From: a virus
Direction: 5' to 3' (one strand)
IMG/VR virus record: IMGVR_UViG_3300025655_000128
Location: 1 to 36,263 of that record
Length of the DNA stretch: 36,263 bases
Shown: piece by piece, positions 14,367 to 35,288 of the stretch
How the letters are laid out: each line of letters starts with the position of its first letter
Position numbering within the stretch: the first letter of the stretch is position 1
Translations under genes and position numbers: made by a program
The notes under the pieces: model-generated
The model's database searches: none
What the model saw: the letters and a program-made list of their open reading frames with translations, nothing else
Told to the model about the DNA's origin: nothing

Positions 14367-14585
14367 TTAGTCAACGATTTCAACAAGTTCCCAGTCTTTG
14401 CCTTCATCCTCAAGGTAAAGCTCTGCGTAGAACTCTTCATCTATTTGACTGGGGTTTACAATTACTTCGAGGTATTCCTCGTCTGGACCAACTGCTTGGA
14501 CATAAGCAAGCTCTTCCAAATCTTCAAACTTGATCTTGATAGTCTTACGCAAAAGCGAAGTCGGATTGGAGTACAGATTCGACAT
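14367..14585 (-). CDS. acidic 72-residue protein overlapping RNAP end
   Basis: MSNLYSNPTSLLRKTIKIKF at the N-terminus, then about 50 residues with very many Glu/Asp (EELAYVQAVGPDEEYLEV). It starts 41 bases inside the RNAP coding end with AAGGAACACTAA upstream, so it is coupled to RNAP. The acid-rich body could mimic DNA or bind RNAP, as small T7-group regulators do, but that is speculation. Confidence 0.65.
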   Translation of the reverse strand: MSNLYSNPTSLLRKTIKIKFEDLEELAYVQAVGPDEEYLEVIVNPSQIDEEFYAELYLEDEGKDWELVEIVD

Positions 14586-16716
14586 TTAGTGTTCCTTTCT
14601 GAGGGGATAAGTCGAGAGCGTCTAGTTGTGTTAAGATGTCTTCTAGGGGTTCTGCTTGGTATAACTCAACAAACTTCTGCCTAACGTGCAAGAACATGTG
14701 ATTCATATTACCAGCATGACAACCAAAAGAATCATGAACAACAGTTGTAGTGTAGTCCGCATCGTGAATACACATTGTTAGGTGAACAGCATCTAGGCTA
14801 TGCACTATGTTCGGTGCAGCGCCTGTTTTCTGTTTACTTTCGTTAAGAGTAGTTTCTTCCCACACTTGTAATTGAACTTTAAGAATTTCGTCCCCATACT
14901 TTAGCTCAGTCCTTTTATTGGTTGGCTTTCGGTAGGCTTGAAACACTGGAAAGTTAGTTACAGGGGAGATCCAAGTTAAGTATACTTTCTTTTCGTTAGC
15001 TCTCTCAGCAAGAGTTTGGAATAGTCTTAACATACGAGCTGGACCTTTTAGCTCCTCATAGCAGGTTTGATACACGAGAGAGCCTAAGAGGGCTCCCCAG
15101 AGATGCTCTTTGTCCCTTAGATAAGGGGAGATATCCCTTGTATCCTCTATCACCTGTTGGCCCATACCGTAGGCTGTACCACCGTATCCCAGTGTCATAA
15201 CGTTACGCTTTACAGTCTTACGTTGGATTTTCTTGTCTTGGATGTTCGTCCAGTAAACAGGAAAAAGTTTCTCTCGCAAGCCTCTGTTTTGATTACGCCA
15301 AGTCTGAGCTGCTTGAAACGCTAGTGCCTTTCTTTCAGACTTGTCTGGTGCTTCTTGATACTCTTTTTGAAGCTTTGTTGCTGTTTGAAACACATCATTA
15401 AACTTGTTAATAGTTTCTGGGTCTAACTTGTTCTTTTTGTCTTCAAGGCTGTCCCAAGTCTTTTCTGCGATAAACATGTAAACATCACCAGGAAGGTCTT
15501 GAGGAACCAAGTTAACCAGAGGGGCAACCTCATCATCTTGAGACATAGCAACAAGGTGTTGAACACCGTTATTAGAGCCATCGATGTAGACTGGTAAGCA
15601 ACTTGGAAAGTCTTCTGGTTCGTTACCATCCCCATTCCAGTTAGAAACCATACTATGCTCATGACAAGCGGAAAGGAAACTAAAGGGTTTATCAGCTTTC
15701 ATCCAACCAGTATTTTTCATAGGGTTGTTAACATACGACATCATGTCGTCAAAGTTATCTAGAACCCACTGAGCACGGTCATCAAGACTAACCTTGTCAT
15801 TCCCCCAAACGTTAGCAGTATGAACACACAACCAGTAGTAACCGTTTTCCCCTAGGGGTACCGCCTCGTCTAGCATTAGGATACCCTTTGCATTGTCACT
15901 AGACTGCTCGTGTAAGAAGGCTGTGTTAGGGTAGATGCGTCCACGGAAGTCTAGGTTATACAAGTGATAGAATGGCTTGTCTAGGTTCTTCTCTGCAAGC
16001 CTTTGGATAGCCTCTGCTTCGATAATTAACGAAGCCCGTTTAATTGGATCAATCTCCTTTGTGAACTTAAAAGGGTTTGACTCAGAGTGCATACACTGTT
16101 TGTAAACCTCAAAGACAGGTTGATTGATACGCCAAGCTGTATTATTTAGCTTATTTAGAGTATCAACAATATAGCTCATGTCATTCTTCTCAAAGTACTT
16201 TAGAGCGTCCTCATAGCCTTTCTTAATAACGCTAATACCTGTTGTAGAGTGATAAGCAGAACCATCCCAAGGCGCTGCTGGTGTATTTACAGGGAACATG
16301 TCACACTTCTCAGTATCTACAAGATCTAACAACTCCTTAATTGCTACCCAGTCTTTTGCGTAAATGAAGTAAGTTCTGTGTTTATCTTTTTTACCATTAC
16401 GGTAGGTGTGTTTCTTACGATAGCCCAGTATCCCAAGTTCAATATAACTAATCAGAACAAACCAACCGCCTTGAATGTCTAGCACACTGTTTTGTTTCTG
16501 ACGTAGTTTTTGTCGAAGCCGTCTACCAATACTACTAGCTACTTCTACTAAGCTTGAGTTTCTTTCTAATCCTTTTAAGATATGTGTGTAAGAGAATTCT
16601 ACAATATCTCTTGCTCCCATTTCAGTTAGGTAGCTCGCAGATTGTCTATTGTCTAGCATCCCCTGTCTGTAATTAAGGTCTTGTGTTAACTTTTCTAGTA
16701 CTGTTTCTTTGATCAT
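14545..16716 (-). CDS. T7-like single-subunit RNA polymerase
   Basis: 723 residues against 883 for T7 RNAP, the loss being mostly N-terminal. The key motifs are in place: DFRGR at 256-260, motif A DGSNNGVQH with Asp379, motif B KRNVMTLGYGG with Lys503 and Tyr511, motif C VHDSFG with Asp662, and the C-terminal SDFAFA, the 'foot' also seen at the end of T7 RNAP. It should transcribe middle and late phage genes from phage-specific promoters, candidates being the 28-nt motif at four sites. The shorter N-terminus may change promoter opening. Weak ribosome site (AGAAAGACAATA). Confidence 0.97.
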   Translation of the reverse strand: MIKETVLEKLTQDLNYRQGMLDNRQSASYLTEMGARDIVEFSYTHILKGLERNSSLVEVASSIGRRLRQKLRQKQNSVLDIQGGWFVLISYIELGILGYRKKHTYRNGKKDKHRTYFIYAKDWVAIKELLDLVDTEKCDMFPVNTPAAPWDGSAYHSTTGISVIKKGYEDALKYFEKNDMSYIVDTLNKLNNTAWRINQPVFEVYKQCMHSESNPFKFTKEIDPIKRASLIIEAEAIQRLAEKNLDKPFYHLYNLDFRGRIYPNTAFLHEQSSDNAKGILMLDEAVPLGENGYYWLCVHTANVWGNDKVSLDDRAQWVLDNFDDMMSYVNNPMKNTGWMKADKPFSFLSACHEHSMVSNWNGDGNEPEDFPSCLPVYIDGSNNGVQHLVAMSQDDEVAPLVNLVPQDLPGDVYMFIAEKTWDSLEDKKNKLDPETINKFNDVFQTATKLQKEYQEAPDKSERKALAFQAAQTWRNQNRGLREKLFPVYWTNIQDKKIQRKTVKRNVMTLGYGGTAYGMGQQVIEDTRDISPYLRDKEHLWGALLGSLVYQTCYEELKGPARMLRLFQTLAERANEKKVYLTWISPVTNFPVFQAYRKPTNKRTELKYGDEILKVQLQVWEETTLNESKQKTGAAPNIVHSLDAVHLTMCIHDADYTTTVVHDSFGCHAGNMNHMFLHVRQKFVELYQAEPLEDILTQLDALDLSPQKGTLNVESVLQSDFAFA

Positions 16717-16825
16717 TATTGTCTTTCTTTTTGTAAGGCTTTGCCTTGCGGCCCTTATCTACAGAAAATTCTACAACAATTTCTCCCTTACAAATAAGTA
16801 AGTAAATTAGAGCAATTGCCATCAT
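16673..16825 (-). CDS. possible 50-residue membrane/basic peptide overlapping RNAP start
   Basis: Reads MMAIALIYLLICKGEIVVEF followed by a basic tail KGRKAKPYKKKDNN. It fills the leader of the RNAP gene and overlaps its first 44 bases. There is no clear ribosome site, so it may be chance. If translated it would be a one-pass membrane peptide. Confidence 0.25.
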   Translation of the reverse strand: MMAIALIYLLICKGEIVVEFSVDKGRKAKPYKKKDNNDQRNSTRKVNTRP

Positions 16826-16874
16826 ATATGATATAGTCTTTAATAACTTGAAAAAAAAATATTTAGTTTAAAGG

Positions 16875-16900
16875 AACCCCACCCCCGAAGGAGTGAGGTT
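16875..16900 (-). terminator. hairpin between HTH gene and RNAP gene
   Basis: An 11-bp stem (AACCTCACTCC with GGGGTGGGGTT, allowing G-U pairs) and a TTCG loop on the minus strand. The following tail CCTTTAAACTAAATATTTTT lacks an immediate U-run, so read-through is likely. In the plus direction ATTTTGTTTT follows the stem. It separates the HTH gene from RNAP, which would then need its own promoter between 16717 and 16874; that 198-base gap shows only AT-rich sequence and the palindrome ATCATATATGAT. Confidence 0.5.
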
Positions 16901-16914
16901 ATTTTGTTTTAGAA

Positions 16915-17148
16915 CTATCCGTTCAATCGTGGGTTGTTAGTATTTAGTGTTTTAACCCAGTTACGAACAGAGTCTTTACAGCAACCGATGTCATAAGCAA
17001 CTTTAGCAATGCTCTCTCCGTTAATTACACGAGAAGCAGCAATAACACGTTCAGCGTTAGTTCGGCCACTATACGGCTGTCCATTTTTAAGGACATAGCG
17101 AGATTTGCTGTAAAAGGATGAGATGGAAGGGAAGTTACGAGTAGCCAT
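16915..17148 (-). CDS. small helix-turn-helix DNA-binding protein
   Basis: 77 residues. A basic serine-rich start is followed by ERVIAASRVINGESIAKVAYDI and GCCKDSVRNWVK, a helix-turn-helix of the transposase/Psq type (repeat VAYDIGCCKDSVRNW is the recognition half). Likely a transcription regulator. Its leader contains several inverted repeats that could be its operator. Placed just before RNAP, it could time RNAP expression. Start behind AAGGAGATCTCTT. Confidence 0.7.
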   Translation of the reverse strand: MATRNFPSISSFYSKSRYVLKNGQPYSGRTNAERVIAASRVINGESIAKVAYDIGCCKDSVRNWVKTLNTNNPRLNG

Positions 17149-17176
17149 AAGAGATCTCCTTATTTATTGGCGGTAC

Positions 17177-17190
17177 AGACCCTGTGGTCT
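17177..17190 (-). other. small leader hairpin before the HTH gene
   Basis: AGACC and GGTCT form a 5-bp stem with a 4-base loop, between the terminator-like hairpin and the HTH start. Confidence 0.45.
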
Positions 17191-17222
17191 AAAAGACCCT
17201 CCAACTTTTTAGGGCTGGAGGG
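17191..17222 (-). terminator. terminator-like hairpin upstream of the HTH gene
   Basis: CCCTCCA and TGGAGGG pair over a 12-base loop and are followed on the minus strand by TCTTTTAG. It lies after the stop of the 17292-17465 gene and before the HTH gene, so it may end the lysis-side message or attenuate HTH expression. Confidence 0.55.
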
Positions 17223-17240
17223 CTAGTTAAACAACAGGGA

Positions 17241-17283
17241 GGATTCCAATGAAATCCACGGAATCCACTCATCGAATGGATTC
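17241..17283. promoter_or_regulatory. overlapping inverted repeats (operator or attenuator candidate)
   Basis: GGATTCC (17241) can pair with GGAATCC (17260), while the overlapping GAATCCA (17261) can pair with TGGATTC (17277). The two stems cannot form together. Such mutually exclusive pairing is seen in attenuators; clustered repeats of TGGATTC could equally be a binding site for the neighbouring HTH protein. Confidence 0.4.
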
Positions 17284-17291
17284 ACTGGATC

Positions 17292-17465
17292 TCACTGTTC
17301 CTGAAGTGTGGACTCTTCGGCCACTTCTTCATGATCACTCAAATGACTTACGTCAATGTAAGTGTGAGACCACTTTTCATCAATTGCTTTAACAAGATTG
17401 CTAAAACTAATAGAGTCCAAGTATTCCCTTTTTTCCTCGTTTGTCATTTTCTTTTTAACCGACAT
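17292..17465 (-). CDS. small charged protein, unknown
   Basis: 57 residues from the ATG at 17465 (MSVKKKMTNEEKREYLDSIS...), chosen because a longer frame from 17528 runs inside the real upstream gene in a different frame. Helical and acidic at the C-terminus (EEVAEESTLQEQ). Overlaps the upstream stop by 11 bases. No family recognised. Confidence 0.55.
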   Translation of the reverse strand: MSVKKKMTNEEKREYLDSISFSNLVKAIDEKWSHTYIDVSHLSDHEEVAEESTLQEQ

Positions 17466-17619
17466 TTGAAGGTTCCACTTTAATTTCACCAACGTGAGGC
17501 ATAAAGGCTCCACGTAATGCTTTTGCATAACGATCTGCGTCTGACTTTAGAAAGAAAGACTTAGTGCAGATCAGGCTAAGGTTTAGGTCGTAGATGCCTA
17601 CTTTGTAAACAGTGTTCAT
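17455..17619 (-). CDS. 54-residue protein, unknown
   Basis: Hand-translated: MNTVYKVGIYDLNLSLICTK, SFFLKSDADRYAKALRGAFM, ending EIKVEPSNVG. AAGGAGAAGACAA precedes the ATG and the start overlaps the upstream stop as ATGA. Looks like a tiny alpha/beta domain. Function unknown. Confidence 0.65.
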   Translation of the reverse strand: MNTVYKVGIYDLNLSLICTKSFFLKSDADRYAKALRGAFMPHVGEIKVEPSNVG

Positions 17620-17717
17620 TTGTCTTCTCCTTTAAGAAGGTAAGGGGTAACGGCGTAGTCCGCAATAGCGGCTAGGAAAGGTGCAGCAAGAGCTGATAGT
17701 ACAAGTACGTGTTCCAT
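17616..17717 (-). CDS. 33-residue hydrophobic peptide
   Basis: Reads MEHVLVLSALAAPFLAAIAD followed by YAVTPYLLKGEDK: one clear membrane helix and a charged tail. AAGGAAAACACT precedes the ATG. It is the first gene after the third palindromic promoter-like element and lies just downstream of the endolysin, so a lysis role (small holin-like or regulator) is possible but unproven. Confidence 0.6.
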   Translation of the reverse strand: MEHVLVLSALAAPFLAAIADYAVTPYLLKGEDK

Positions 17718-17742
17718 AGTGTTTTCCTTTATGGATTGTTAT

Positions 17743-17764
17743 TGATATATGTTATATCATTATA
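17743..17764 (-). promoter_or_regulatory. TATAAT plus palindrome element, copy 1
   Basis: On the minus strand a conserved GCATC, then TATAAT, merges into the perfect palindrome TGATATA-N3-TATATCA. Same arrangement as at 18906 and 19215. No convincing -35 box is present at 16-18 bases. It lies 26 bases before the 33-residue peptide gene, and could be a hairpin promoter, an operator over a start site, or both. Confidence 0.6.
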
Positions 17765-17770
17765 GATGCG

Positions 17771-18172
17771 CTAGCTTTCTCGGTTTTTATAGAACAAGTG
17801 TGTTCCAACCTTACTCACATACTCTAGCTCATCTGCCCAGTAGGGCCAGACATAGTCTGCATGGTAGTGGGTAGTGTCTGTTCCAGGTAGGTAGGTCTCC
17901 GGTTCAGACAAGATAATAGCTGCTGCCTTGTAGATTTCCTCCCATGCTTGTTTGTCTAGGTAACTCATTTTTGTAGGGTCATCAGTAAGACCATCGTGTG
18001 TCCAGCTAAACTGTTGTTTCTGATAAACTACTTCACAAATGGTATCAGGATAACTGCTAGACTCAACTCGATTAAGAGTTACTTCAGCTACCATTTGCTG
18101 ACCGATTAAAGGCTCATTACGAGCTTCAAAAAACATATTAAGTGCTAGGCACATTGTTGCTGTCATAATCAT
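17771..18172 (-). CDS. SleB-type cell wall hydrolase (endolysin)
   Basis: 133 residues. The Hydrolase_2 (SleB) pattern is clear: CLALNMFFEARNE with candidate catalytic Glu16, then GQQMVAEVTLNRV, PDTICEVVYQ and QFSW. This family cleaves peptidoglycan glycan strands. No cleavable signal peptide is evident, so release would need a holin. The first residues MIMTATMCLALNM are mildly hydrophobic. Four small genes for possible membrane proteins lie directly upstream. Start behind AAAGGAGAATGC; it shares a base with the upstream stop. Confidence 0.9.
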   Translation of the reverse strand: MIMTATMCLALNMFFEARNEPLIGQQMVAEVTLNRVESSSYPDTICEVVYQKQQFSWTHDGLTDDPTKMSYLDKQAWEEIYKAAAIILSEPETYLPGTDTTHYHADYVWPYWADELEYVSKVGTHLFYKNRES

Positions 18173-18345
18173 TAAGCATTCTCCTTTAGTGTTTCTTTTA
18201 GAACTTTGTTAAGCGCCTCTTCACAAGGCACAGCTGTAAGGTCTATGAATTCTTTTGACAAAGGCGGACTAAAAAGAACACCCCCAATACTAACTATTAA
18301 CTCTGTAGTGCCTTGTACAAAGGCTTTACCCCAAGTCATTTTCAT
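18172..18345 (-). CDS. 57-residue protein before endolysin
   Basis: Hand-translated: MKMTWGKAFVQGTTELIVSI, GGVLFSPPLSKEFIDLTAVP, then a helical charged tail. One weak hydrophobic stretch (residues 16-26). Its last bases include AAAGGAG for the endolysin. It overlaps the end of the upstream membrane protein gene by 20 bases. Possible lysis accessory; function unknown. Confidence 0.6.
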   Translation of the reverse strand: MKMTWGKAFVQGTTELIVSIGGVLFSPPLSKEFIDLTAVPCEEALNKVLKETLKENA

Positions 18346-18637
18346 TAATTTCTTCCCTTTTATCTGGCATCATATTAACCAGTCTTCGAATAAAACTCTT
18401 TACATCAACTTCTTTGCTAGAACCCTTTGTCATGTGAAACAAAAAATCTACAAGGAAAAAGCCAAGTATAAAAGGCAGATAAGTTATACCTGTATAAATT
18501 ACTTGAACAAGTATTAAGAATAAAACAACAAATTCGTTTATTGCATAAACTTTTTTATCTGTGTATTTGTGGTACCCCAGCCTAATAAACAAAGCCGCTA
18601 AAAACTGAGCTAGAAAAGTTACAACGATTGTTAACAT
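18326..18637 (-). CDS. three-helix membrane protein, holin candidate
   Basis: 103 residues. Hydrophobic segments at about 3-20, 34-51 and 53-70, then a charged cytoplasmic-type tail (KSFIRRLVNMMPDKREEINEN). Three membrane passes before an endolysin suit a class I holin. A tail this long and basic is a little unusual. Start behind AAGGAAACACAAA; candidate phage promoter 17 bases further upstream. Confidence 0.65.
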   Translation of the reverse strand: MLTIVVTFLAQFLAALFIRLGYHKYTDKKVYAINEFVVLFLILVQVIYTGITYLPFILGFFLVDFLFHMTKGSSKEVDVKSFIRRLVNMMPDKREEINENDLG

Positions 18638-18653
18638 TTTGTGTTTCCTTATT

Positions 18654-18681
18654 AGCAGTTTTAAACCATGCTTAGGGTTAC
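18654..18681 (-). promoter_or_regulatory. candidate phage RNA polymerase promoter, site 2
   Basis: Plus strand AGCAGTTTTAAACCATGC followed by TTAGGGTTAC. Shares the invariant AGCAGTTT, CT and AGG blocks with the other three sites. Lies between two membrane-protein genes, 16 bases before the start at 18637. Confidence 0.55.
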
Positions 18682-18685
18682 CTTA

Positions 18686-18871
18686 TTAATATGCGACGTT
18701 ATAGTTTGCCTTCTTGTCTCTTTTGTCGGCTTTATAAAAAGCCATTCCGTACTTGCTATATTTTTTTCTTTTAGATTTTTTGTAAAGGTATTCACCTACT
18801 TTAAAACTAAAAAACTTATAGCTCAGTGTTGTACAGATAGCAAAAACGATTGTATAGATTAGCATAGCCAT
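18686..18871 (-). CDS. single-pass membrane protein with basic tail
   Basis: 61 residues from the ATG at 18871 (AGAGGAACTTAAA upstream); a GTG at 18895 would add eight residues. MAMLIYTIVFAICTTLSYKF is one membrane helix, followed by a Lys/Tyr-rich tail (KSKRKKYSKYG). Position upstream of the lysis genes suggests a holin helper, antiholin or regulator. Confidence 0.6.
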   Translation of the reverse strand: MAMLIYTIVFAICTTLSYKFFSFKVGEYLYKKSKRKKYSKYGMAFYKADKRDKKANYNVAY

Positions 18872-18891
18872 TTTAAGTTCCTCTTGGATTT

Positions 18892-18952
18892 CCACTTGGG
18901 GTTATTGATATATTGTTATATCATTATAGATGCCTTGTTTTTCTCACTTTTT
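18892..18952 (-). repeat. 61-nt repeat with TATAAT plus palindrome element, copy 2
   Basis: CCACTTGGG, then the TGATATA-N4-TATATCA palindrome (18906-18923), TATAAT on the minus strand (18923-18928), and the flank GCCTTGTTTTTCTCACTTTT. Nearly identical to 19202-19262. It lies just before the ATG at 18871 and overlaps that gene's alternative GTG start (18895). Confidence 0.75.
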
Positions 18953-18977
18953 GCACACAAAGTTCGTACAATTTTGA

Positions 18978-19005
18978 AGCAGTTTATACACATACTCAGG
19001 TGTTT
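18978..19005 (-). promoter_or_regulatory. candidate phage RNA polymerase promoter, site 3
   Basis: Plus strand AGCAGTTTATACACATACTC followed by AGGTGTTT. Differs from site 1 at only two of 28 positions. Immediately after the holin-like gene at 19010 and upstream of the palindromic element at 18906, so two types of candidate promoter stand in series here. Confidence 0.6.
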
Positions 19006-19009
19006 TATT

Positions 19010-19186
19010 TTATTTATTTTTTGGCTTATACGAGAAAACATAAGCTAAAGGTATAGCTCCAAAGATAACAGTAAGGATAGCCCACAACCAGGGGTTTTGA
19101 CCATTGTATTTAGCCATAAGAAAGCTAATACGGGCGAGAAGAACTATACACACTACTGTATAGATTGTAAACAGAATAGCAATCAT
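19010..19186 (-). CDS. 58-residue two-helix membrane protein, holin candidate
   Basis: Hand-translated: MIAILFTIYTVVCIVLLARI (first helix), MAKYNGQNPW turn, LWAILTVIFGAIPLAYVFSY (second helix), KPKNK end. Size and two-pass layout fit class II holins. First gene after the tape measure terminator and after the third palindromic element. AAAGGAAATAAAAA precedes the ATG. Confidence 0.7.
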   Translation of the reverse strand: MIAILFTIYTVVCIVLLARISFLMAKYNGQNPWLWAILTVIFGAIPLAYVFSYKPKNK

Positions 19187-19201
19187 TTTTTATTTCCTTT
19201 A

Positions 19202-19262
19202 CCACTTGGGTTACTGATATATTGTTATATCATTATAGATGCCTTGTTTTTCTCACTTTTTT
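19202..19262 (-). repeat. 61-nt repeat with TATAAT plus palindrome element, copy 3
   Basis: Same order as copy 2: CCACTTGGG, palindrome TGATATA-N4-TATATCA (19215-19232), TATAAT on the minus strand (19232-19237), flank GCCTTGTTTTTCTCACTTTT. It stands between the terminator of the tail operon and the first membrane gene. Confidence 0.75.
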
Positions 19263-19289
19263 GTGTAGTTTTTTGCTGACGTATTTGAT

Positions 19290-19315
19290 AAAAAAGGCCA
19301 CCCCGAAGGGTGACC
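19290..19315 (-). terminator. strong terminator after the tape measure gene
   Basis: GGTCACCC and GGGTGGCC form an 8-bp stem with a TTCG loop, followed by TTTTTT on the minus strand. A textbook intrinsic terminator 26 bases after the tape measure stop. It marks the end of the head/tail message. Confidence 0.9.
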
Positions 19316-19340
19316 ATTAAGTTTTATTTTGATAAACTAG

Positions 19341-22300
19341 TTATCGACGGTAGTTGCTCTCTTTATTCTGAGAGTTCACACCTTGAGTAATAGAGGGCAT
19401 CATCTTGATAATCTCTTTACGAGTCTGTCTAGAGATGTCACCTGTTACAGAAAGGTTAACTACTGTTTGATTGCTGCCATTGTTTCCTGAGTTACTCTTT
19501 AGCAATTCCGCAGTCCGTTGACTTGGCAGGACATACTCACCTGGGGTAAGCATGACAGGCACACTATCTTTACCTGCTTGTCCGATGTTAGGGTTGATAA
19601 GACCACCTGCAGATCTCATTTGAACAATACCGCCAGTGTGAAGCGGAGCACCACTAAAGGCTCCAAGTATAGAACTTAGGAAACCGCCGCCACCGCTAAA
19701 CATCCCTGAGAGTCCTTCGAAGATACTAGAAAGACCCTTACCAAGCATTGAGACTACACCTGTAAAGCCTTCAGAAAGACCAGACAAGAAACCGCCCTCT
19801 CCCATAGATTCCATTTGAGACCCGATACCCTCTTTGATCTTGCCGCCAGCAAGGTTACCAACGCCATCAGCGCTACCCATAAGGCTTGAAAAGAACGTAT
19901 CAAACATTACGTCTAGATTAGAAGCCCTAAAGAAAGCTTGTGTGAAAGAATCTACAACAGTGTCAATAATGCTGTTGCTAATAGAATCAAGCAAACTATT
20001 AAAGAAACCAGCAATTGTGCTTTCACCTTTAATAAGAGACTTAAAACTTTCTGCAAAAGCAGAACGTATACTATCAGAAGCAGACTGAGCTTTTGAAGTT
20101 AGATTGTTAAGAAGAGTTGTTTGATACTCTAGCTCTCTGTTGGTCTCAGATTTATTCTTGTAATCATCAAAACTTAAAGTACTAAGCTTTTCTTGCAATA
20201 CAAGAATATTCTTACCGATATCTAAGGTTCTTTGGCTAGTCCCGACGGACTCATCTAACCCAAGAGCCTCTAAGGCTTTATTACCTTGCAATACAGTTCC
20301 TTGGGCAATAAGAGTTTCAAAGATTAACTTCTTTTGTTTTTCTAACTCCGCAACTGCCGCAGACCTTCCCTTAACATCATCTAAGGTAGACTCTGTTATT
20401 TTCTTATTAAGAGCTAATACTTCGCTAACTGGCTTCTTTAGCTTTTCAAAAGCAGCACTACCTAACCCTGCAGCTTCCTGCAAGTTAAAGCCAAAACCAG
20501 CTTCACCAAGACCAGTTACAAACTGTTCAAAAGGATTAACTTTGTCTTTCTTACTTGCCTTATCTGGCTTATCTGGCTTACCTGGACCACGATCATTACT
20601 TAAGAAAGAGGAAACAAGGTCTCTAGCATCAGAAACTTTCCGCTCCATAACTCTAATAATACCAACATCCACTTGTCCGTTTCCAACAAGTTGGAGTCGA
20701 GTAAGAGCTGCCGTAAGAAAGTCAATAGTCCCGCTAGCTCTTAGTATCTCTGTCATAGTATTAGGGTTAATGCTAATTGCTTCTTCCAAAGATTTTGAGT
20801 TTTCTACTTGGCTTAGCGCATTTTCAATTGCACCAATTCGATCTACTTGTGCTAGAGTCATTGAGTTTTCTTCAGCAATTAGAACTTCAAGTAAAGACTT
20901 TGCTCTGCCTAAACTTACTAGCTGCTGGTTTCTTAACGTATTGTCTTTTTGATTCGCATCGTTAATTGAATCTTGAAGCAATTCAATCTCTATTAATTGA
21001 CTCAAGATTTTCTTGTTAACAGTTTCAACGTCACGCCCAGAAGAATTAGTAAGACCAGGGGTGGTTATATTGCTGCTAGGTACTAAGTTAAGTGCGTCAA
21101 TACCTAATTTTTCTAGTCTAGCGTTCATGCGATCAAAAGCAGCTACAACTACTTCAGGGATTGTATCGCCCGCAAGCCCCATTTTATTAGTCATTGCTTC
21201 AAACAGAAGCTTAATGTTTGTTTGAACCTGATCGAAAACTTTAGATCTTTCTTCTGTTGTAACTAAGTTTTGATCAATGTTTTCAAAACGATTTAGCTGC
21301 TCTGTAGCCTTACTTGCTTTTTCTAGCATAGTTTTTGTTAGATCTCTAAGATCCTCTGTACTTAACTTAACAAGATCTTGACTATCAAAGGCACTCGCAT
21401 CAAATATACCCTCACCAAAAACTGATTGCAATGCAGTTGCAGCTTGTAAGAAACTATCCTCTGCAGCAGAGCGCACAACACCTTGTGTTGTTTGAATAAC
21501 TTGATTTACATCGCCGCTAACTGCCGCTAGAAGCTTATCTGCGAGTTCCTGTCTTATAGAAATTCCAGTACCAGTTATTCCACTAGCAGACTCAAACTCT
21601 TTCCCAAGTTCACTCAACGAAGTAAACAAGCTGTTCATAACTTCAGGTGAAACGTTATCTGCGTTCATGCCCGATGACACTGCCATAATGCTGTTCAAAG
21701 ACGATATAAGGGTTGACCCAGAAATAGACTTATTCAACTCCTCTACAAGATTAGAGTCGTTTAAAAGAGCAGCAATAGCAGAGGTGATTTGAAAGTCATC
21801 CCCTGTAGCAATTGAGTTAGAAATTTCTTCAAAAGCAGAGGACAGACCTTCTGACGCTGCGGTTGGAAGCCCCAGCCCTCTTGTAATTTCAGCGGACTGT
21901 GGTACAAAGCTGATGTTATCTTTAAAAATGTTTTCAAAAGGAGCTAGTAACGTTGTTAAAGTTTTACTAGCCGAAGACTGTTCAACACCATCTATTTGCG
22001 GTTTATTGCTGTCTATGAAAGCCTGTCGTGCAGCATCAACCGCACGCTTTACTCTTCTAGTTTCATAACGGCTATTAACACCATTTTCTTCAAGGTTTCT
22101 TTGAGCAGTCTCAAGAATGCTATTGGTTCTTTTAGCAATTGTTTGTAGTTCTTTGCTTTCTTTTATGTTGATATCTTCAAATGAGAACGTATCAAAGATA
22201 TCGTTAAAGTTAACATTCATATCTCCAATTTTATCAAAAGAACCAAGAGACTTAACAAGACTAGCTTCCAGGTCACGAGCTGCTCTTGATGAATAGCCAA

Positions 22301-26221: not shown

Positions 26222-26225
26222 AGAC

Positions 26226-27136: not shown

Positions 27137-27160
27137 AGAGAGGGCAATTAAGCCCCCTCT
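27137..27160 (-). terminator. hairpin after the tail tube gene
   Basis: AGAGGGGGC and GCCCTCTCT pair over TTAATT, followed on the minus strand by TCTTTAG. A leaky terminator here would keep tube protein abundant relative to the downstream chaperones. Confidence 0.55.
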
Positions 27161-27170
27161 AATTTTACTA

Positions 27171-27710: not shown

Positions 27711-27713
27711 TTG

Positions 27714-28115: not shown

Positions 28116-28116
28116 A

Positions 28117-28452
28117 TTATACCTCCTTTGCCAGTATTGCGTCTATAGTAAAACCATTGTCACTATGATCAACAATACTGTAAGCCCCAGAAGAAACAGT
28201 TAGAGTATCATAAACAGACAGGTTTGGGCCTGACTTCATAATAGCAGTAACTGTAAAACCGTCTCCAGAAGATTTTTTGGTCGATTGCAAGATAACATCA
28301 ACAGTAGTAGTACTGGAAGTGCTAACTATGCTCCGTGTTGCAAAATCGTAACCAGAGACGGTTTTTGTAGAAAGTGTACCTTGTTCTACCAAGTCACCTG
28401 CGGCAGCAAAAGCCTTATCAACAGCCTTTGTTACTTTAGCAGAAAGTGACAT
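28117..28452 (-). CDS. head-tail joining protein (head closure type)
   Basis: 111 residues; Thr/Ser-rich beta pattern (TVDVILQSTKKSSGDGFTVT and PNLSVYDTLTVSSGAYSIV). Position between adaptor and terminator suggests a head closure or stopper protein. No family match is certain. The start overlaps the upstream stop by one base. Confidence 0.6.
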   Translation of the reverse strand: MSLSAKVTKAVDKAFAAAGDLVEQGTLSTKTVSGYDFATRSIVSTSSTTTVDVILQSTKKSSGDGFTVTAIMKSGPNLSVYDTLTVSSGAYSIVDHSDNGFTIDAILAKEV

Positions 28453-28958
28453 TAGTTAGCCCTCCACCAGCTTGCACCTAGCCCGTCAACACCTCTTCTT
28501 AAAAGTGGACGGATAGGCTTAATAACAAAACTAGGAGTTACAGAAATTCTAGTAACATCGTTATTAGAATCGCTGACACTGATACTACCAATACTAATAC
28601 TTTCGTATGTTTGGGTTGTCTGTGCTACCAAGTCTTCGTTATTCAGCAGGTGTAAAGCCTGTTCATAAACAGCTACTTTGACTAGAGAAGGGATTTCTGT
28701 TTCAGAAAAAGCAATTTGCATTCCCAGTCTATTATCAAGGTAGTTAGCGTTTCTTCGTGGCCATGCAAGAGCTTGGGAAGAACTAACAGCAGAGCCAATC
28801 CAAGGATTGTTGTCAATAATTTGTGTAGCAGTCACTAAAGCTTCTTCACGGGTTGAGTCTGGAGCGGAAGTCCAACTGGCAGAATCAATTCGTGTTTCAA
28901 AGTAAGCGTCAGCGTCAGCTATTGTCACATAACTATTAGTATTAAGAACTAAAGCCAT
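28452..28958 (-). CDS. head-tail adaptor (DnaT-like fold family)
   Basis: 168 residues with SYVTIADADAYFETRIDSAS, then REEALVTATQIID, LAWPRRN and VAVYEQALHLL: the pattern of the family often labelled 'putative DnaT-like ssDNA-binding protein', which in phages is the adaptor on the portal. Despite the label a structural role is favoured by position, directly after the capsid gene. Start behind AGGAGGAGCTA. Confidence 0.75.
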   Translation of the reverse strand: MALVLNTNSYVTIADADAYFETRIDSASWTSAPDSTREEALVTATQIIDNNPWIGSAVSSSQALAWPRRNANYLDNRLGMQIAFSETEIPSLVKVAVYEQALHLLNNEDLVAQTTQTYESISIGSISVSDSNNDVTRISVTPSFVIKPIRPLLRRGVDGLGASWWRAN

Positions 28959-28976
28959 TAGCTCCTCCTAGTCTTA

Positions 28977-30092
28977 TTATGAGTGGTAGATAGGCAGGAT
29001 GCCCAAGTTCAAAGAATCCATTTTACGGTTCCAAGAGCCAGCAGTTGCGTAAGCAGTGTTAGTTGCGAAAGCATTGGTTGCGCCAGCCCAGTCATAACCC
29101 ATTGGGTGCATGATGAAGCCATAACGGTACCAGATGTTTGTAGAGCCGCCACCTGTGTAGGAAGCTGGGTTACGATCAACTTCAACAGGAGTTGGAGTGG
29201 ACACTGGTGCGAAAGACACAGAACCTGGCTTCAGAACGAAAGAACACTTAGCAGAAGAAGCGTTCAGGTCGCCAGTAGCAGGTGTGATTGTCTGGCTTGC
29301 ACGAGTCATGATCAAGCGGAACTTACCACCGAAGACTGTGTCAAACTCAAGGTTGCCGTCTTGTACACGAGTTTGGTCAACCAAGTTGGCTGCACGCATT
29401 TCAGCCATAACTTCTGGGGAAGTAGCCAAGTACATGAAATCTGGTTCCATGTCTTTGTAAGCCATGCCGATAGCTTTGAAGAGGCGCTCACCACGAGCAG
29501 CACCAATAGCGGAGCTGTCAAAGAGACGACGTGCATCGGAAGTACCTGTTGCAGCGGCACCAAATTCGCCAGCAGCGTTGATGTCAACAAAGAAACCTGT
29601 GTTAGCAGCGTCTGCGTCTGTTTCGAAGGATACAATACCGCCGTTACCAGTACCGCCAGCATCACCGAGGGCAACCTCGTGAGCAGCAACACCCTTAAGA
29701 ACCTTCAAGAGTGCATCACCCTCGTCGTCGCCACGTACTTTTGCGAAGTCACGGGCAATCTTGGAGAGACCGTCTTGCTTCGAAACAACTTCTTGCAAGT
29801 TAACCTGCTGTGCACCGAAGGTACGAACAGTCTTAACATAGTTAGCAATGTCAGTTGTGATATCAGTGTAAGCACCATCAGTAGCAGACGACAACGATGG
29901 AACGTTGATGTTTGCGGAGAGTGGCTTGTACCAACGGAACTGACCAACAAAGGACTCGCCGTTAGCGTTGATGTCATCACGCTGGCCAACGATGCCAGTG
30001 GAGTTAAGCTTTTTCTCAGTTGTGTAAGCCTCATCTGCATAAGCAGAGATTGCGAGTGCTACGTTCTGAAAGTCTGTGTTTGTAATAGCCAT
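28977..30092 (-). CDS. major capsid protein
   Basis: 371 residues of ordinary HK97-type capsid composition (NINVPSLSSATDGAYTDITT near the N-terminus, ERLFKAIGMAYKDMEPDFMY, SPEVMAEMRAANLVDQTRVQ and KFRLIMTRAS). Position after a scaffold gene and before the adaptor, and a good AAGGAAATAAATC site, support the call. The scaffold is a separate gene, so no large delta-domain is expected here. Confidence 0.9.
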   Translation of the reverse strand: MAITNTDFQNVALAISAYADEAYTTEKKLNSTGIVGQRDDINANGESFVGQFRWYKPLSANINVPSLSSATDGAYTDITTDIANYVKTVRTFGAQQVNLQEVVSKQDGLSKIARDFAKVRGDDEGDALLKVLKGVAAHEVALGDAGGTGNGGIVSFETDADAANTGFFVDINAAGEFGAAATGTSDARRLFDSSAIGAARGERLFKAIGMAYKDMEPDFMYLATSPEVMAEMRAANLVDQTRVQDGNLEFDTVFGGKFRLIMTRASQTITPATGDLNASSAKCSFVLKPGSVSFAPVSTPTPVEVDRNPASYTGGGSTNIWYRYGFIMHPMGYDWAGATNAFATNTAYATAGSWNRKMDSLNLGILPIYHS

Positions 30093-30122
30093 GATTTATT
30101 TCCTTATGGTAACTATTAGATA

Positions 30123-30803
30123 TTAGTAAGTGTAATTACCCAGCTGGCCTTTGGCCGCTAGAGAAAGAACTTCTTCTGTTGTCATTTCACCAATAGACTT
30201 TTTCTGTTCCATTGACGAGGTGCCAGACGTAGTTGTCTTACCAGCACCAGTGTTAGCTTTAATTCGAAATAGGAATGAATTCTCTTCATTCTTAGAGTAA
30301 GATGAAATAAAGTCCTGAATGTTAGTACCGGCTTTATGAACCCAAAGACCATCATCATTTTGAACGAGTTGTTCAACAATGTCACGATAGGCCATTTGGC
30401 GACTACGCTCATTACGGAAGTCTAGCCCGCTAAGCGCAGAGTTAACTACACTATCACGGTTAAGCTTAACATTCTCTTCTTCAAAGACCTTAAGCTTTGC
30501 TTGGGCTTCAGCAAGTTTTAGCTCTAGAGCTTCTTGCATTTTTCCCTCTTCTTCCAGACGTTGAATATGAGCTTGTTTTTGTTTTTGCTCAATTTCAACA
30601 GCCTTTTTCAAAGCTTCGTCACGTTCACCCGCCATTCGATCCATGTTGGATTTCATTTTAGCGAGTCGTTCTTGGACTTCACGTTCAATCGGATCTACTT
30701 CACTCTCAGTGACAGTTCCCTCTTGAACAGTTTCTTGTTCTTGAGTCTCAGTGGACTCATCTTGAGCAGTTACTTCTTCAACTACTTTATTCTCTTCACT
30801 CAT
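30123..30803 (-). CDS. capsid scaffold protein
   Basis: 226 residues. Acidic N-terminus (NKVVEEVTAQDESTETQEQE), a long coiled coil about 45-115 (Glu/Lys/Gln rich), and a Gly/Thr tail with STY-rich end GQLGNYTY. Characteristic of scaffolds directly upstream of the capsid gene. A hairpin (30853-30867) lies in its 99-base leader. Confidence 0.88.
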   Translation of the reverse strand: MSEENKVVEEVTAQDESTETQEQETVQEGTVTESEVDPIEREVQERLAKMKSNMDRMAGERDEALKKAVEIEQKQKQAHIQRLEEEGKMQEALELKLAEAQAKLKVFEEENVKLNRDSVVNSALSGLDFRNERSRQMAYRDIVEQLVQNDDGLWVHKAGTNIQDFISSYSKNEENSFLFRIKANTGAGKTTTSGTSSMEQKKSIGEMTTEEVLSLAAKGQLGNYTY

Positions 30804-30852
30804 TATTTCTTCCTTTCAAGCACAGCTTGGGTTATGATTTCTTTAAATATAC

Positions 30853-30867
30853 AGAGTTACAAACTCT
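30853..30867 (-). other. perfect small hairpin in the scaffold leader
   Basis: AGAGTT and AACTCT with a 3-base loop in the gap between the MuF-RNAP gene and the scaffold gene. No U-tail, so not a terminator. Geometry (6-bp stem, 3-nt loop) recalls N4 hairpin promoters. The remaining gap 30804-30902 shows nothing else I recognise. Confidence 0.35.
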
Positions 30868-30902
30868 AGTTAGGTTAAGTCGCATGGGCTATTACAAATA
30901 AA

Positions 30903-33900
30903 CTATGGACCAATTCCATACCAGTCCTTACCCGCAGGTATTGGGGCTAGTATTTCTTCTCTTGTAATCTTATCTTTAGGATCGATAAGACCTTGTGCCT
31001 TTGCTTTAGCAAGTAAAGCGTTGTAAGACTTGTTCGATAAACCCTGTCTACGCATTTCAAGAAGGGTCTTTCTGATAGTATTGCCCTCTAGAGCATCTGC
31101 ATAGATGGTTCTAAGAGCAGCTTTAGCGTTGTCTGCTTCAGCGATGTTTGTAAAGAAAGCATCGTGAATCGTCCCTGTTTCAACGTTGTTTTTACGTCCC
31201 CACAAGTGAAACCTACGTACAATAACTGCGTCATTGCTGTGGTTACCATTTACACCTAATCCAATACGTGCGTCGTTAAGCGAGCCTTTTCCTAGCAGCT
31301 TTCCGTCTTGTGCACTGTCTTCATAGATGTTAGCAATTTTACGACCCGTAACCGGATCAGTAAATTCAATGCGCTCTTGTATCTTTGGTCGATACCTTTG
31401 CGTCATAATCTTTCCGTCAAAAGTAACCCACGGTATATCTACCTTTTGAGTTTCTTCAACAAAAACCTTTGCCACGTCTTTCCAGTAGTTAATGAAGTTG
31501 TCTGTAACCGGAGCACGTTGTGCTAGGTTCTTAGACATAATTCTAGAAACTTCCGAAAATTCTTTTGGGCCAATTATCCCTCGTCTGGAGTTCATAAGTT
31601 TATTTACAAAATCCGCAGTATCAGGATGAATGTCTTGTGCTTGTTTTAACAAAGTTCTACCAGCAGGTTCATTCTTGTTGATCATTTCAATTAGTTCTGC
31701 TCTAAAAGAGGTTAACTCTGATTCAACACCAATGGCACCTTGCCGATTAGCAATCTTAATTTTACCATCAATAATCCTAAGTTGTTCACCGAGGTTATCC
31801 TTAGTAACAGTAACATATCCCTTGCCATCAAGAACTTTTGATAACTGTCCAGCAACGTTTGCAGTCTTAGTCGCATCGCCCGCTCCGTAGAAAGAAACCA
31901 TATTCTGTGACTTAGCCGCCTTAGCTAGGTCTTCCCAAGTAAGACTTGCGTCTCTTAATGCAGGAATCTTTAAGAAATCAGGATCGTTAACGGTGTCCAT
32001 CGCAACTAGGTCATATAGGCGGTTTTTCTGAGTGGTTGGCAAAACATTACTTGCAAGAGATACTTTACGATCCCCCGTCGAGAGTCCAATGATTTGAGCA
32101 CCAGAAGAACTGGCGTCGTTTTCAATCATTAACTTTGTCTTATAGGTTGACAAACGAGATACATTGTTAAAGTCACCGTTTACATGATCATAAACACGAG
32201 CGTACTCTAGAGCCATTCTAGACATCTTAGGTACTTCAGGGCCCTCGAGCCCCTTTATAAGTGGATGTTCTAGAAATTCCCTAAGCCTACGATCTCTTTG
32301 TGTTTTTGACTGAAGCAACCTTCCAAGTTCAAGTAACTTTGATTCATTCCTACGAAAGATTTCTAGACGTCCAGATTGAGTAAGTGCTTCCGTGCCAGGG
32401 CCAATCATAGCTCCTAACTGAATACGAAGCTCCCTCATTGCGCCTGGTGTCATAGACTTTGCAGTACCTGAGTTTAAAAAAGGCCGAACAAGCTCACCGC
32501 CAGTAGGTGTAAGATAACCACGATGGTATACCCGTCCACGGGAGTCAATAAAGACATTTGTTCTAAAGTTCTTATTACGCTGCGCATGAAACTTAACAGT
32601 TGACATAAGGCCATAGCCTTGTTCTCCACGATTAAGTATTTCATGCCGAAGTTCGTTTATAGAGTCATAATACTTCGAGTTACCACGGGGGTCTCTGAAA
32701 CGTACAATGTCGTCCATAAAGCTTGCGAATTCAACATCAACCCCATACTCGACGTTAGACACATGATTCATCATCTGTGCCATTTCAGCATCGATCTGTT
32801 TAGCATCATAGTCAGCAAACTTATCACGAGAAATAATAGGTATACCTGTGTCGTTTCCACGAGAGTCTACAAAGGTCTTTTTATTTGCTTTAACATACAA
32901 CCTATCTCTATCATTGATAGTTCCCAGGCGTCGAGCAATAGTTACTCTTCGCTCTGCCTCTTGGAGCTTTATCAAACCCTTATCAATAACAATAACTTCC
33001 CTAGAGATAGTGTCTTGCCACCCACCGGAAGTTCTCCCAGTTTCCAGATCAAGTACACCCCTTCGTGTTTTACCCCTAAACTGAACTTTGATCATGTTTT
33101 GTTTGACCATAAAGTCTAATATTTTAGAGCCTTCCGCATGATTATCTCTCAGCGTGTTTTTAGTAAAGGGTATAAGGTTTTCAAAATCTTTCGAGAACTG
33201 CTTACCAATGTTAATCGCAAGAGAGTCGTAATCAGTTGACTGTCCTGATGAAATTAGCTTAGCAATCTTAGTGATACTATTAAGTGCTGCGTCATCCATT
33301 ACTTTAGAAGTAGGCTTTTTGTCAGCAATCAAAAATTCCATATCTAGAATTCTTCGAATAGCTTCATTCTTTTTTGATACGAGTTGTGTCCACCAAGAAT
33401 CAGAAGGTTCTCGATTGTATAAGAATTTGTAAGAGTCATAAGCTTGCTTTACAAAGGGTAAATTTAAGAATTTTTTCTTTAGTTTATCCTTAGAAGGATA
33501 CTTTTCAGTAAACCCGTTAAAGTAAACCCGCATAGGTGACCTACCAGTAAAAAACAGCTTTTTGGCTAGGGCTTTTCCTTCGGTACTACGCCAAGCATCA
33601 ATATAACGTTGATCTTTTAGCTGGTCTCTTACAAGCTCTTCAAAGTTGTAGTACTTACCCATAATCTGAACTTGTGGAGTATCCTTGGACAAATAGCTAA
33701 CAAACATCTCTGACCTTTGTCGTGAGCGGGTGTCTAAAAGCCTTGAAACGTTCTGAACAGCGAACCTGTTTTCCGCTCTAACAACTGAAGCAAAATCTTG
33801 CCAAGGGTCTTTGTTTTTAGCATAACGCTCAAAAACAACCCTTAAGTTCTCTACAATTACTGTCTGTTGGTTAACAGAAAGCTTATCATCGAGACTAGAA

Positions 33901-35288
33901 GCCATTGATTCAATAAAGTCTTTTTCTTCTAATTTTAGAAGTTGGGACTTTCTCATAAAGTCAATACGCTCTTGGTAGAGGTTGAAGTCAGGGTCATAGA
34001 GGTTGTTGTTCTTAACCTCACCAGTTAGAGGGTCTGCCGAAAAGTTTCTTTCATCAAATTCGTTACCAACTCTACGTCGAGATGCCTGTTTACCCACCAA
34101 GGAAGTGCCCTTGTAGTCAGTTAGTGACATCGTCTTTGAGTAGTCATCTGAGTCTAGTAAGAAAAGCTGACGAAGGTCTTCTTTATATTTTGGGTTACTT
34201 ACAAGATTACTAGGGCGGCTGGCATCTAGCCTTACATCAACTTCCCTAATCTTTTGTCTAGGTCTAAAGACAGTAGTCGCTTGTGTAGCTCTGTTTCTTA
34301 AGGCTTGGATGGAAAGCGCCTTACCTTTTGGAGTTATGAATTGTTCAGCACTTAGCTTACCTTGTCGAAACAAGTTTACAGCATCCATAGACCCTAATAG
34401 GTTTGATTGAATCTCCATTGGTTGTACTTTTAACCAAGCGCCAAATGATTGTATTTTTGGAGGGAGCCCCGTAAGGGTTTCTACCTTCTTTTTAGCTAGC
34501 TCTGTTTTATTTATCCGGCTTGTGTTTTCTAAAGACAGTTCTTCTTTAGATTTCAACACAGGGATCAAAGAAGATCGGCAGTTCCAGTGAAGCGGAGGCT
34601 TGAACTGATCGTCGTTTATATCATAAATTTTACCGTTATGATAAGAACAAATCGGACTTGTCCTAGAGTCAAGAATAGCTGTAAACATAAATCCTTTAAG
34701 AATGTCTTTATTACTCTCAGCAACCTTTTTAAGAGCTGCAGTTTGAGTAGAAGTAATAGAAGTTCTCGTTAAAGTCTTGGCCTGATACTCTGTTATCTTA
34801 GTTGTTTTAAGAACATCAGCTATAATATCGTTTTGGCTAGCGCCTTTTGCAAGCCCAGCTTTTACTTTAGATTGAATTCTAACAAGCTCACCAGAAGAAA
34901 TGTTTTGAATATTGTTCTTAATATTACTTGGCCCTTTAATGTTTGGCCCAGTAACTTCAGCTAGCAATTCTTTAGTCCGTGGTCTTTGAACTTTATAAAA
35001 GTCTTTTACTTCTTTGTATAGGTTATCACTATGAAAGTCTAACTGTGAAGTAGAAAACTCTTTTAGTGTGTTGGTTTTATGAGAAAGAAGTTCTGTTCCA
35101 AAACGACTTACTTCTTTTGAGACATCATTTTTTACATTATTGCGAAGCAAAGCTTGCAAGTTGTTTCTATGTCTTTTTAGAATTCGTCTGTTTTGTATTT
35201 GAACACCCTCTTCATAAAGCCTCACATCTGCCATATGTGCAACAATTCGATCAAAAAGTTTATCGTTAATATTCATCCAGTCCACCAT
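30903..35288 (-). CDS. MuF minor head protein fused to a single-subunit RNA polymerase (virion RNAP candidate)
   Basis: 1461 residues. About 1-245 form a MuF/SPP1 gp7-type domain: a coiled N-terminus, LTRTSITSTQTAALKKVAES (173-192) and DSRTSPICSYHNGKIY ... PPLHWNCRSSLIP (207-243; Cys214, His217, His234, Cys237). About 260-900 is a linker and RNAP N-terminal-like region. The RNAP core shows DSRGR at 915-919, motif A NDASSSGAQ with Asp1058, motif B KSQNMVSFYG with Lys1126 and Tyr1134, and motif C TIHDAF with Asp1376. Spacing between motifs is closer to N4 virion RNAP than to T7, except a shorter A-B gap. MuF proteins sit inside heads and some are injected, so this RNAP is likely packaged and delivered with the DNA. 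The start has a poor ribosome site; an ATG at 35276 behind GGTGGA is an alternative. Confidence 0.88.
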   Translation of the reverse strand: MVDWMNINDKLFDRIVAHMADVRLYEEGVQIQNRRILKRHRNNLQALLRNNVKNDVSKEVSRFGTELLSHKTNTLKEFSTSQLDFHSDNLYKEVKDFYKVQRPRTKELLAEVTGPNIKGPSNIKNNIQNISSGELVRIQSKVKAGLAKGASQNDIIADVLKTTKITEYQAKTLTRTSITSTQTAALKKVAESNKDILKGFMFTAILDSRTSPICSYHNGKIYDINDDQFKPPLHWNCRSSLIPVLKSKEELSLENTSRINKTELAKKKVETLTGLPPKIQSFGAWLKVQPMEIQSNLLGSMDAVNLFRQGKLSAEQFITPKGKALSIQALRNRATQATTVFRPRQKIREVDVRLDASRPSNLVSNPKYKEDLRQLFLLDSDDYSKTMSLTDYKGTSLVGKQASRRRVGNEFDERNFSADPLTGEVKNNNLYDPDFNLYQERIDFMRKSQLLKLEEKDFIESMASSLDDKLSVNQQTVIVENLRVVFERYAKNKDPWQDFASVVRAENRFAVQNVSRLLDTRSRQRSEMFVSYLSKDTPQVQIMGKYYNFEELVRDQLKDQRYIDAWRSTEGKALAKKLFFTGRSPMRVYFNGFTEKYPSKDKLKKKFLNLPFVKQAYDSYKFLYNREPSDSWWTQLVSKKNEAIRRILDMEFLIADKKPTSKVMDDAALNSITKIAKLISSGQSTDYDSLAINIGKQFSKDFENLIPFTKNTLRDNHAEGSKILDFMVKQNMIKVQFRGKTRRGVLDLETGRTSGGWQDTISREVIVIDKGLIKLQEAERRVTIARRLGTINDRDRLYVKANKKTFVDSRGNDTGIPIISRDKFADYDAKQIDAEMAQMMNHVSNVEYGVDVEFASFMDDIVRFRDPRGNSKYYDSINELRHEILNRGEQGYGLMSTVKFHAQRNKNFRTNVFIDSRGRVYHRGYLTPTGGELVRPFLNSGTAKSMTPGAMRELRIQLGAMIGPGTEALTQSGRLEIFRRNESKLLELGRLLQSKTQRDRRLREFLEHPLIKGLEGPEVPKMSRMALEYARVYDHVNGDFNNVSRLSTYKTKLMIENDASSSGAQIIGLSTGDRKVSLASNVLPTTQKNRLYDLVAMDTVNDPDFLKIPALRDASLTWEDLAKAAKSQNMVSFYGAGDATKTANVAGQLSKVLDGKGYVTVTKDNLGEQLRIIDGKIKIANRQGAIGVESELTSFRAELIEMINKNEPAGRTLLKQAQDIHPDTADFVNKLMNSRRGIIGPKEFSEVSRIMSKNLAQRAPVTDNFINYWKDVAKVFVEETQKVDIPWVTFDGKIMTQRYRPKIQERIEFTDPVTGRKIANIYEDSAQDGKLLGKGSLNDARIGLGVNGNHSNDAVIVRRFHLWGRKNNVETGTIHDAFFTNIAEADNAKAALRTIYADALEGNTIRKTLLEMRRQGLSNKSYNALLAKAKAQGLIDPKDKITREEILAPIPAGKDWYGIGP

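Follow-up and report, generated by a model that had tools for sequence, protein, structure and literature searches.

The virion RNA polymerase (vRNAP, gp50) of phage N4 (Schitoviridae) transcribes from single-stranded DNA hairpin promoters, a second polymerase (RNAPII, gp15/gp16) is composed of two chains, and the late genes are transcribed by the host RNA polymerase (PMC4496689). In the long-tailed Thermus phage P23-45, a vRNAP fused to the tape measure protein was shown to transcribe the pre-early genes, among them the gene of a second RNAP (PMC10770324). The Peru-2 preprint reports a podovirus with a second T7-like RNAP, and the part of that preprint available to us describes no head-protein fusion. 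Our literature search returned no polymerase fused to a MuF head protein; its scope did not include the description of DSS3_VP1 (Rihtman 2021), which may say more.

Here we analyze a linear phage fragment from IMG/VR (IMGVR_UViG_3300025655_000128, 36,263 nucleotides, hereafter the window) that is related to roseophage DSS3_VP1 of the Naomviridae and encodes a MuF-polymerase fusion (MuF-RNAP) as well as a T7-like RNAP. It resembles N4 in possessing two single-subunit-type RNAPs, one with the virion genes and the other near small, presumably early genes, and in the order in which the two enzymes would act. The N4 vRNAP differs in its length (3500 aa), in having no MuF part, in its TxxGR, DG.TNG and FD motifs and in its ssDNA hairpin promoters, whereas MuF-RNAP has T7-type motifs, a predicted T7-type fold and a putative two-block promoter; moreover, N4 RNAPII consists of two chains and its counterpart here of one. 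With the long-tailed P23-45 the window shares a polymerase fused to a virion protein, and two RNAPs alongside two different promoter motifs. The P23-45 enzymes, however, are two-barrel RNAPs of the cellular type carried on the tape measure, whereas T7-type RNAPs and a MuF head protein are found here. No two-barrel RNAP fused to a tape measure occurs in the window, where the predicted fold is of the T7 type and the tape measure gene is separate.

Among named phages, DSS3_VP1 and DSS3_PM1 (Naomviridae, Noahvirus) are most closely related to the window; they have the same RNAP pair in the same gene order (63% identity for full-length MuF-RNAP and 57% for the T7-like RNAP) and carry class I and class II elements. 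Their MuF-RNAP is labelled only "head morphogenesis" or "minor head protein-like". We take the host of DSS3_VP1 to be Ruegeria pomeroyi DSS-3. The DNA of both phages is reported to contain dU instead of dT (PMC9868039, PMC12697855). A more distant MuF-RNAP, 29% identical over its length, is encoded by EBPR siphovirus 1; there a group I intron carrying an HNH ORF interrupts the gene, and the partial 54 kb record shows no second RNAP. Pelagibacter phage Kolga has a T7-like RNAP (32% identical) and a MuF head protein related over its first 330 residues, but this protein ends at 633 aa with no polymerase match, and the phage has no class II element.

Organization of the Window

All main genes lie on the minus strand. 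They run from the portal gene through the 1461-aa MuF protein, a scaffold-like protein, the major head protein and small neck and tail genes to a 2175-aa tape measure protein, followed by 2.6 kb of small genes, the 723-aa RNAP and replication genes that include a DNA polymerase and a primase-helicase. Genes with no profile match of their own were labelled by their place in this order. The principal features are as follows, with classes I and II denoting the promoter-like repeats described below.

35339-36262, minus strand: portal protein, cut by the window end, adjoining the MuF-RNAP gene (PHROG portal, 4.2e-22)
30903-35288, minus strand: MuF head protein fused to a predicted T7-type RNAP, 1461 aa (Pfam, DSS3_VP1 homologue, AF2 model and fold match)
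34563-34877, minus strand: MuF domain, residues 138-242 (Pfam Phage_Mu_F, E 1.4e-13)
30909-33650, minus strand: part of MuF-RNAP matching the T7 RNAP fold, residues 547-1460 (motifs and fold match)
19296-19315, minus strand: terminator-like stem-loop between the tape measure gene and class II copy 1 (consensus scan; 6 found against a shuffle mean of 4.1)
19215-19262, minus strand: putative class II promoter copy 1 with downstream hairpin
18906-18953, minus strand: putative class II promoter copy 2 with downstream hairpin
17743-17789, minus strand: putative class II promoter copy 3 with downstream hairpin
16717-19295, minus strand: candidate early region, small genes and a cell wall hydrolase, then the T7-like RNAP
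14545-16716, minus strand: T7-like non-virion RNAP, 723 aa, FAFA end (Pfam, T7 RNAP match, motifs)
14340-14368, minus strand: class I (T7-like) promoter candidate upstream of gene 13698-14294 (same motif in genomes G005, G010 and G034)
2360-2388, minus strand: weaker class I candidate upstream of gene 1636-2349, overlapping the 3' coding end of the preceding gene

An alternative start of MuF-RNAP is possible at residue 5 (35276). Gene 13698-14294 is presumably SSB-like; a PHROG profile search with it gave no match. Gene 1636-2349 is exonuclease-like by its place, as compared with DSS3_VP1. The cell wall hydrolase gene (Pfam Hydrolase_2) occupies positions 17771-18172, between class II copies 2 and 3.

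The Two RNA Polymerases

A sequence-only reading of this DNA had proposed two RNAPs in one siphovirus, and both genes are confirmed at the positions listed above, by Pfam, PHROG and T7 RNAP matches. The 723-aa protein matches Pfam RNA_pol with an E-value of 2.2e-81 and T7 RNAP with 3.3e-60, and the residues for which it had been called T7-like (Lys503, Tyr511 and the FAFA end) are all present. That it forms one chain, where N4 has two subunits, is also right but ordinary, as it is simply a T7-like RNAP. In the 1461-aa protein, MuF and polymerase occupy a single reading frame beside the portal gene, with a weak Pfam RNA_pol match at residues 1045-1417 (E 4.7e-5) and a PHROG RNA polymerase match (E 3.4e-20).

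MuF-RNAP contains the following T7-type motifs: D/TxxGR (DxxGR at 915-919), the motif A Asp (D1058, within DASSSGAQ, which has Gln), the motif B Lys and Tyr (K1126 and Y1134) and the motif C HD (H1375-D1376, within HDAFF). The protein occurs in three diverged groups (A, B and C). An alignment of the first group comprises 50 rows, of which seven are shortened by start choice and were left uncounted; every one of the remaining rows (43/43) retains the Asp and Arg of DxxGR, the two catalytic Asp, the Lys and Tyr of motif B and the His of motif C. When all groups were aligned (48 rows with 31-88% identity to the window), the catalytic residues again did not vary, unlike the Gly of DxxGR. The Arg four residues before the motif B Lys (RxxxK) is absent from 8 of 9 MuF rows, which have A, M or Q; it is present in one (L217) and in all 20 rows from other RNAPs.

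The MuF-fused enzyme had also been placed near N4 vRNAP on account of its longer motif spacings. Two of these distances hold up: DxxGR to motif A spans 143 residues (139 in N4 vRNAP, 116 in T7), and the motif B Lys to the motif C Asp spans 250 (281 in N4, 181 in T7). However, the motif A-to-B spacing of 68 is shorter than in both N4 vRNAP and T7, and the B-to-C spacing is unstable among MuF-RNAPs, amounting to 364 and 389 in two group C rows, so spacing is no proof of kinship. The kinship itself is not supported by motifs, profile comparison or predicted fold, all of which set the enzyme apart from N4 vRNAP. The N4 vRNAP motif set (TxxGR, DG.TNG in motif A, FD in motif C), from which distant N4-like rows also deviate, was not found in MuF-RNAP, which has DxxGR, Gln in motif A and HD in motif C. 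Nor does a 1461-aa protein with an N-terminal MuF domain have the vRNAP format of about 3500 aa in three domains. The hhalign probability is 0.2% against N4 vRNAP and 68% against the T7-like RNAP.

An AF2 model of residues 271-1461, generated from 46 rows, has a mean pLDDT of 81.5; a model run without an alignment (pLDDT 33.7) was set aside. The predicted structure is that of a single-subunit RNAP (Foldseek E 5.3e-19 to 1s76). Its best match is T7 RNAP (VIA Z 29.0, 508 residues at 3.6 Å), followed by mitochondrial RNAPs (Z 26), N4 vRNAP (16.2) and N4 RNAPII (14.9). In an unrooted RNAP tree with long branches, the MuF enzyme and N4 vRNAP fall in separate clades (each 100/100). Three groups, namely N4 vRNAP, the MuF enzyme with N4 RNAPII, and the T7-like enzymes, join at one node, so the tree alone cannot tell the closest pair; the joining of the MuF enzyme with N4 RNAPII (89/72, on long branches) was given no weight. 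Judged by motifs, profile and predicted fold, the MuF-fused enzyme is of the T7 type rather than that of N4 vRNAP.

Distribution and Introns

A first scan for MuF-RNAP identified 159 encoding stretches; scanning with groups B and C aligned gave 449, and with EBPR siphovirus 1 (group C) 49. The RNAP pair recurs across the groups. Of the 39 records that encode the T7-like RNAP, the MuF-RNAP part is present as well in 17; most of the remainder are short fragments. All 17 group B and C records examined encode MuF-RNAP and 10 of them the T7-like RNAP as well, which in half of these (5/10) is in pieces suggesting introns. EBPR siphovirus 1 and a further six records, of 28 to 43 kb, showed MuF-RNAP alone.

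A group I intron with an HNH ORF lies at motif B of MuF-RNAP in EBPR siphovirus 1 (40.5 bits, E 1.4e-8, below the Rfam cut-off of 50) and in G028 (103 bits). A shared intein had been suspected in G028; the insertion is a group I intron instead. In genes of active enzymes, a site of this kind is a common target of such introns. Group I introns carrying HNH ORFs, or repeats resembling an intron core, were seen at L005 28901-29761, at L184 about 1960-2960, and in G046, G042 and G044. They occur in MuF-RNAP and T7-like RNAP genes alike, with similar copies in both genes in G046 and G042.

No match to the dCTP deaminase of DSS3_VP1 was found in the window fragment. Of the other long records examined, only G028 (L205 10362-10688) encodes a relative, with 38% identity, and for this reason no link to dU-containing DNA is claimed.

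Two Classes of Promoter-Like Elements

Repeats outside the long ORFs of long genomes form two main promoter-like classes, besides coding and intron repeats. Class I, which we take to resemble a T7-type promoter, is scattered and genome-specific, reading TAATAGGKTRCGTTAAAGARGGGG in DSS3_VP1, AATACCTGACGTTTAAGAATAA in G005 and G010, AAAATRGGGCGGAATAATGA in G029 and CCCGTTRAATTAACCC in group C. In DSS3_VP1 it stands before the terminase, portal and structural genes. Copies of class II, AAAAAGTGAGAAAA-N5-GCATCTATAATGA, are found past the tail genes on the coding strand, where they precede the gene of the second polymerase, the T7-like RNAP, by 0.5-9 kb. Within one genome the two classes are unrelated, and class I varies between genomes while class II varies little.

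The class IIa core, allowing at most one mismatch, was found in 31 of 39 loci scanned (counting L175, whose single match is really a class IIb element), in every case on the coding strand upstream of the T7-like RNAP and never on the other strand. Seven of the eight loci with no IIa match carry a variant, IIb (GTGGGG...CCCTCTATAAYGA), in the same region; the locus scan found no class II element in L174. A strict count in nine group A/B records likewise placed every class II element on the coding strand upstream of the RNAP; G025 and group C escaped this strict pattern, and their class II elements were recovered with looser ones. In each of four genomes the group C version (CGCGGAAAA...ATCTTATATGA) occurs twice, 1.6-4.2 kb ahead of the RNAP; G044 and G046 each have one additional copy elsewhere, G042 has a near copy and one opposite-strand match, and G041 has no additional copy. 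A looser class II-like site was observed at 67.8 kb in DSS3_VP1.

A logo of 69 distinct IIa copies reveals a 14-base block at -28 to -15, conserved nearly as well as the core, that lay outside the search pattern and is separated from the core by variable bases. The pattern GTGAGAAAA-N5-GCATCTATAAT matches 78 viral-contig stretches against 0 for a swapped-block control. Its single occurrence in 257 Gb of cellular genomes, in a Tannerella MAG, is about what chance would give for 20 fixed bases (estimate 0.5). Among 77 records carrying the class II pattern, 54 have an RNA_pol match, including 31/31 of those of 16 kb or more.

A stem of at least five pairs directly follows 39 of the 69 IIa copies, and one of at least six pairs follows 37. 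When the downstream parts were swapped between copies in 1000 trials, stems of at least six pairs were obtained in 9.8 copies on average and in 16 at most. The hairpin covaries and its stems differ within one genome, which points to a structure rather than an operator. Were it to act as RNA, the start of transcription should lie at or just after CTATA, in the style of T7-type enzymes, and not 6-7 bases past a -10 box. The class II hairpin as the promoter itself is not favoured, because no hairpin was evident in the IIb copies read; the part common to IIa and IIb is the two-block sequence.

Promoter Type and Polymerase Phylogeny

The IIa/IIb type was mapped onto the MuF-RNAP and T7-like RNAP trees of the same records. 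On the MuF-RNAP tree a single change suffices (100% of bootstraps), whereas two are needed on the T7-like RNAP tree, where no bootstrap (0%) allows a single change. The T7-like RNAP tree rejects IIb as one clade with an AU p of 0.0103, in a test that placed G053 and G054, whose promoters were not read, with IIb. Class II, which sits beside the T7-like RNAP gene, thus follows the distant MuF-RNAP gene. The discordance rests on few events (G022 and G025 against G028), and other head-module genes would follow the MuF-RNAP tree too.

A Proposed Transcription Cascade

The N4-like cascade suggested earlier survives in part. Its logic receives strong though indirect support from a separate, conserved class II element upstream of the second RNAP gene that tracks the MuF-RNAP tree, whereas the N4 kinship of the enzyme is not supported. 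What was directly observed comprises two enzymes with conserved catalytic residues, the predicted fold, two motif classes, their places and their covariation with the polymerases. From this we infer packaging, injection, timing and the pairing of enzyme with promoter, and consider it probable that MuF-RNAP is packaged and injected and transcribes the early genes, including that of the second RNAP. MuF-RNAP would be made late and held in the head beside the portal through its MuF part; it is the fusion to MuF and the place of the gene beside the portal that suggest packaging. It would enter the cell with the DNA and start at class II promoters, which would drive the small genes and the T7-like RNAP just downstream of the tail genes. 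In turn, the T7-like RNAP would read class I elements, some of which precede the portal and MuF-RNAP genes, thereby supplying the polymerase of the next virion. Infection may begin without the host RNA polymerase.

Several observations fit this cascade poorly. The placement of a lysis gene, the endolysin-like cell wall hydrolase, is odd if the region is early, and the motif B Arg is mostly missing from the MuF enzyme. The tree discordance depends on the few events named above, L174 shows no class II in the locus scan, and EBPR siphovirus 1 has neither a second RNAP nor class II in the part searched (partial record, 54 kb). Finally, class II holds TATAAT, which would also suit a host sigma-70 RNAP as a -10 box.

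This last point leads to the alternative that class II is a promoter of the host sigma-70 RNAP, which would thus produce the T7-like enzyme, as in T7, leaving MuF-RNAP another role, for instance in DNA entry or in late transcription. This is how many phages with a single T7-like RNAP operate, T7 and Xp10 being named in PMC4496689. Yet none of the 69 class IIa copies matches TTGACA at five or six bases (mean 2.29 of 6, against 2.96 when shuffled) or has a TG before the -10, and a sigma-70 scan of window positions 14000-20000 yielded about as many sites (15) as shuffles did (12.6, sd 4.2). The conserved block at -28 to -15, set off by variable bases, likewise speaks against this reading, and a sigma-70 start point would presumably cut the stem-loop. 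The promoter type follows the MuF-RNAP tree, and Kolga, with a related T7-like RNAP and a MuF protein devoid of polymerase, has no class II. We regard transcription of class II by the host enzyme as unlikely.

Less probable still is that both classes are read by the T7-like RNAP, with class II serving as autogenous promoters of this enzyme or as promoters of the lysis region. The proximity of class II to the T7-like RNAP and cell wall hydrolase genes would agree with this, but the two classes are unrelated within a genome, class I shifts between genomes where class II scarcely does, and the class II type conflicts with the T7-like RNAP tree. That the MuF-fused polymerase is no longer an RNAP and serves as a structural domain, as the mostly absent motif B Arg and the weak Pfam score might indicate, is the most improbable reading, given that the two catalytic Asp, the Lys and Tyr of motif B and the His of motif C never vary, either among the 43 first-group rows counted or in the 48-row alignment, and that introns sit at active-site codons.

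The cascade led by MuF-RNAP is, on our best reading by analogy, closest in idea to that of P23-45, with the N4 logic realized by an independently recruited enzyme and unrelated parts. Somewhat short of an even chance, in our estimate, is the fuller proposal of a third independent route, in which a T7-type RNAP was recruited on a portal-side MuF protein, uses a double-stranded two-block promoter, often gives transcripts with a capping hairpin and leaves the rest to a second T7-type RNAP, so that the host RNAP is never needed. Should the cascade hold, the packaged-polymerase strategy would reach into a large and widespread phage family, long-tailed and mostly uncultured, along a path that differs from the giant vRNAP of N4 and the tape-measure-fused two-barrel RNAP of P23-45. 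It would also raise the question of how a folded polymerase passes a long tail, and offer a new polymerase-promoter pair. The named isolate DSS3_VP1 comes with exact predictions as to the early genes, the start sequence and the enzyme that reads it.

Other Repeats in the Window

A third repeated intergenic element, CCTAAGCATGTGTATAAACTGCTT, occurs on the minus strand in four copies with 69-100% identity (13666-13694, 18653-18681, 18977-19005 and 35305-35333), one of them between the portal and MuF-RNAP genes. Positions 6207-6895 contain alanine-rich coding repeats with periods of 9-12 bases in adjacent small ORFs. A tandem pair of related ORFs with repeated YLNDKLHREDGPA-like motifs, 78% identical in DNA over 237 bases, lies at 4481-5171.
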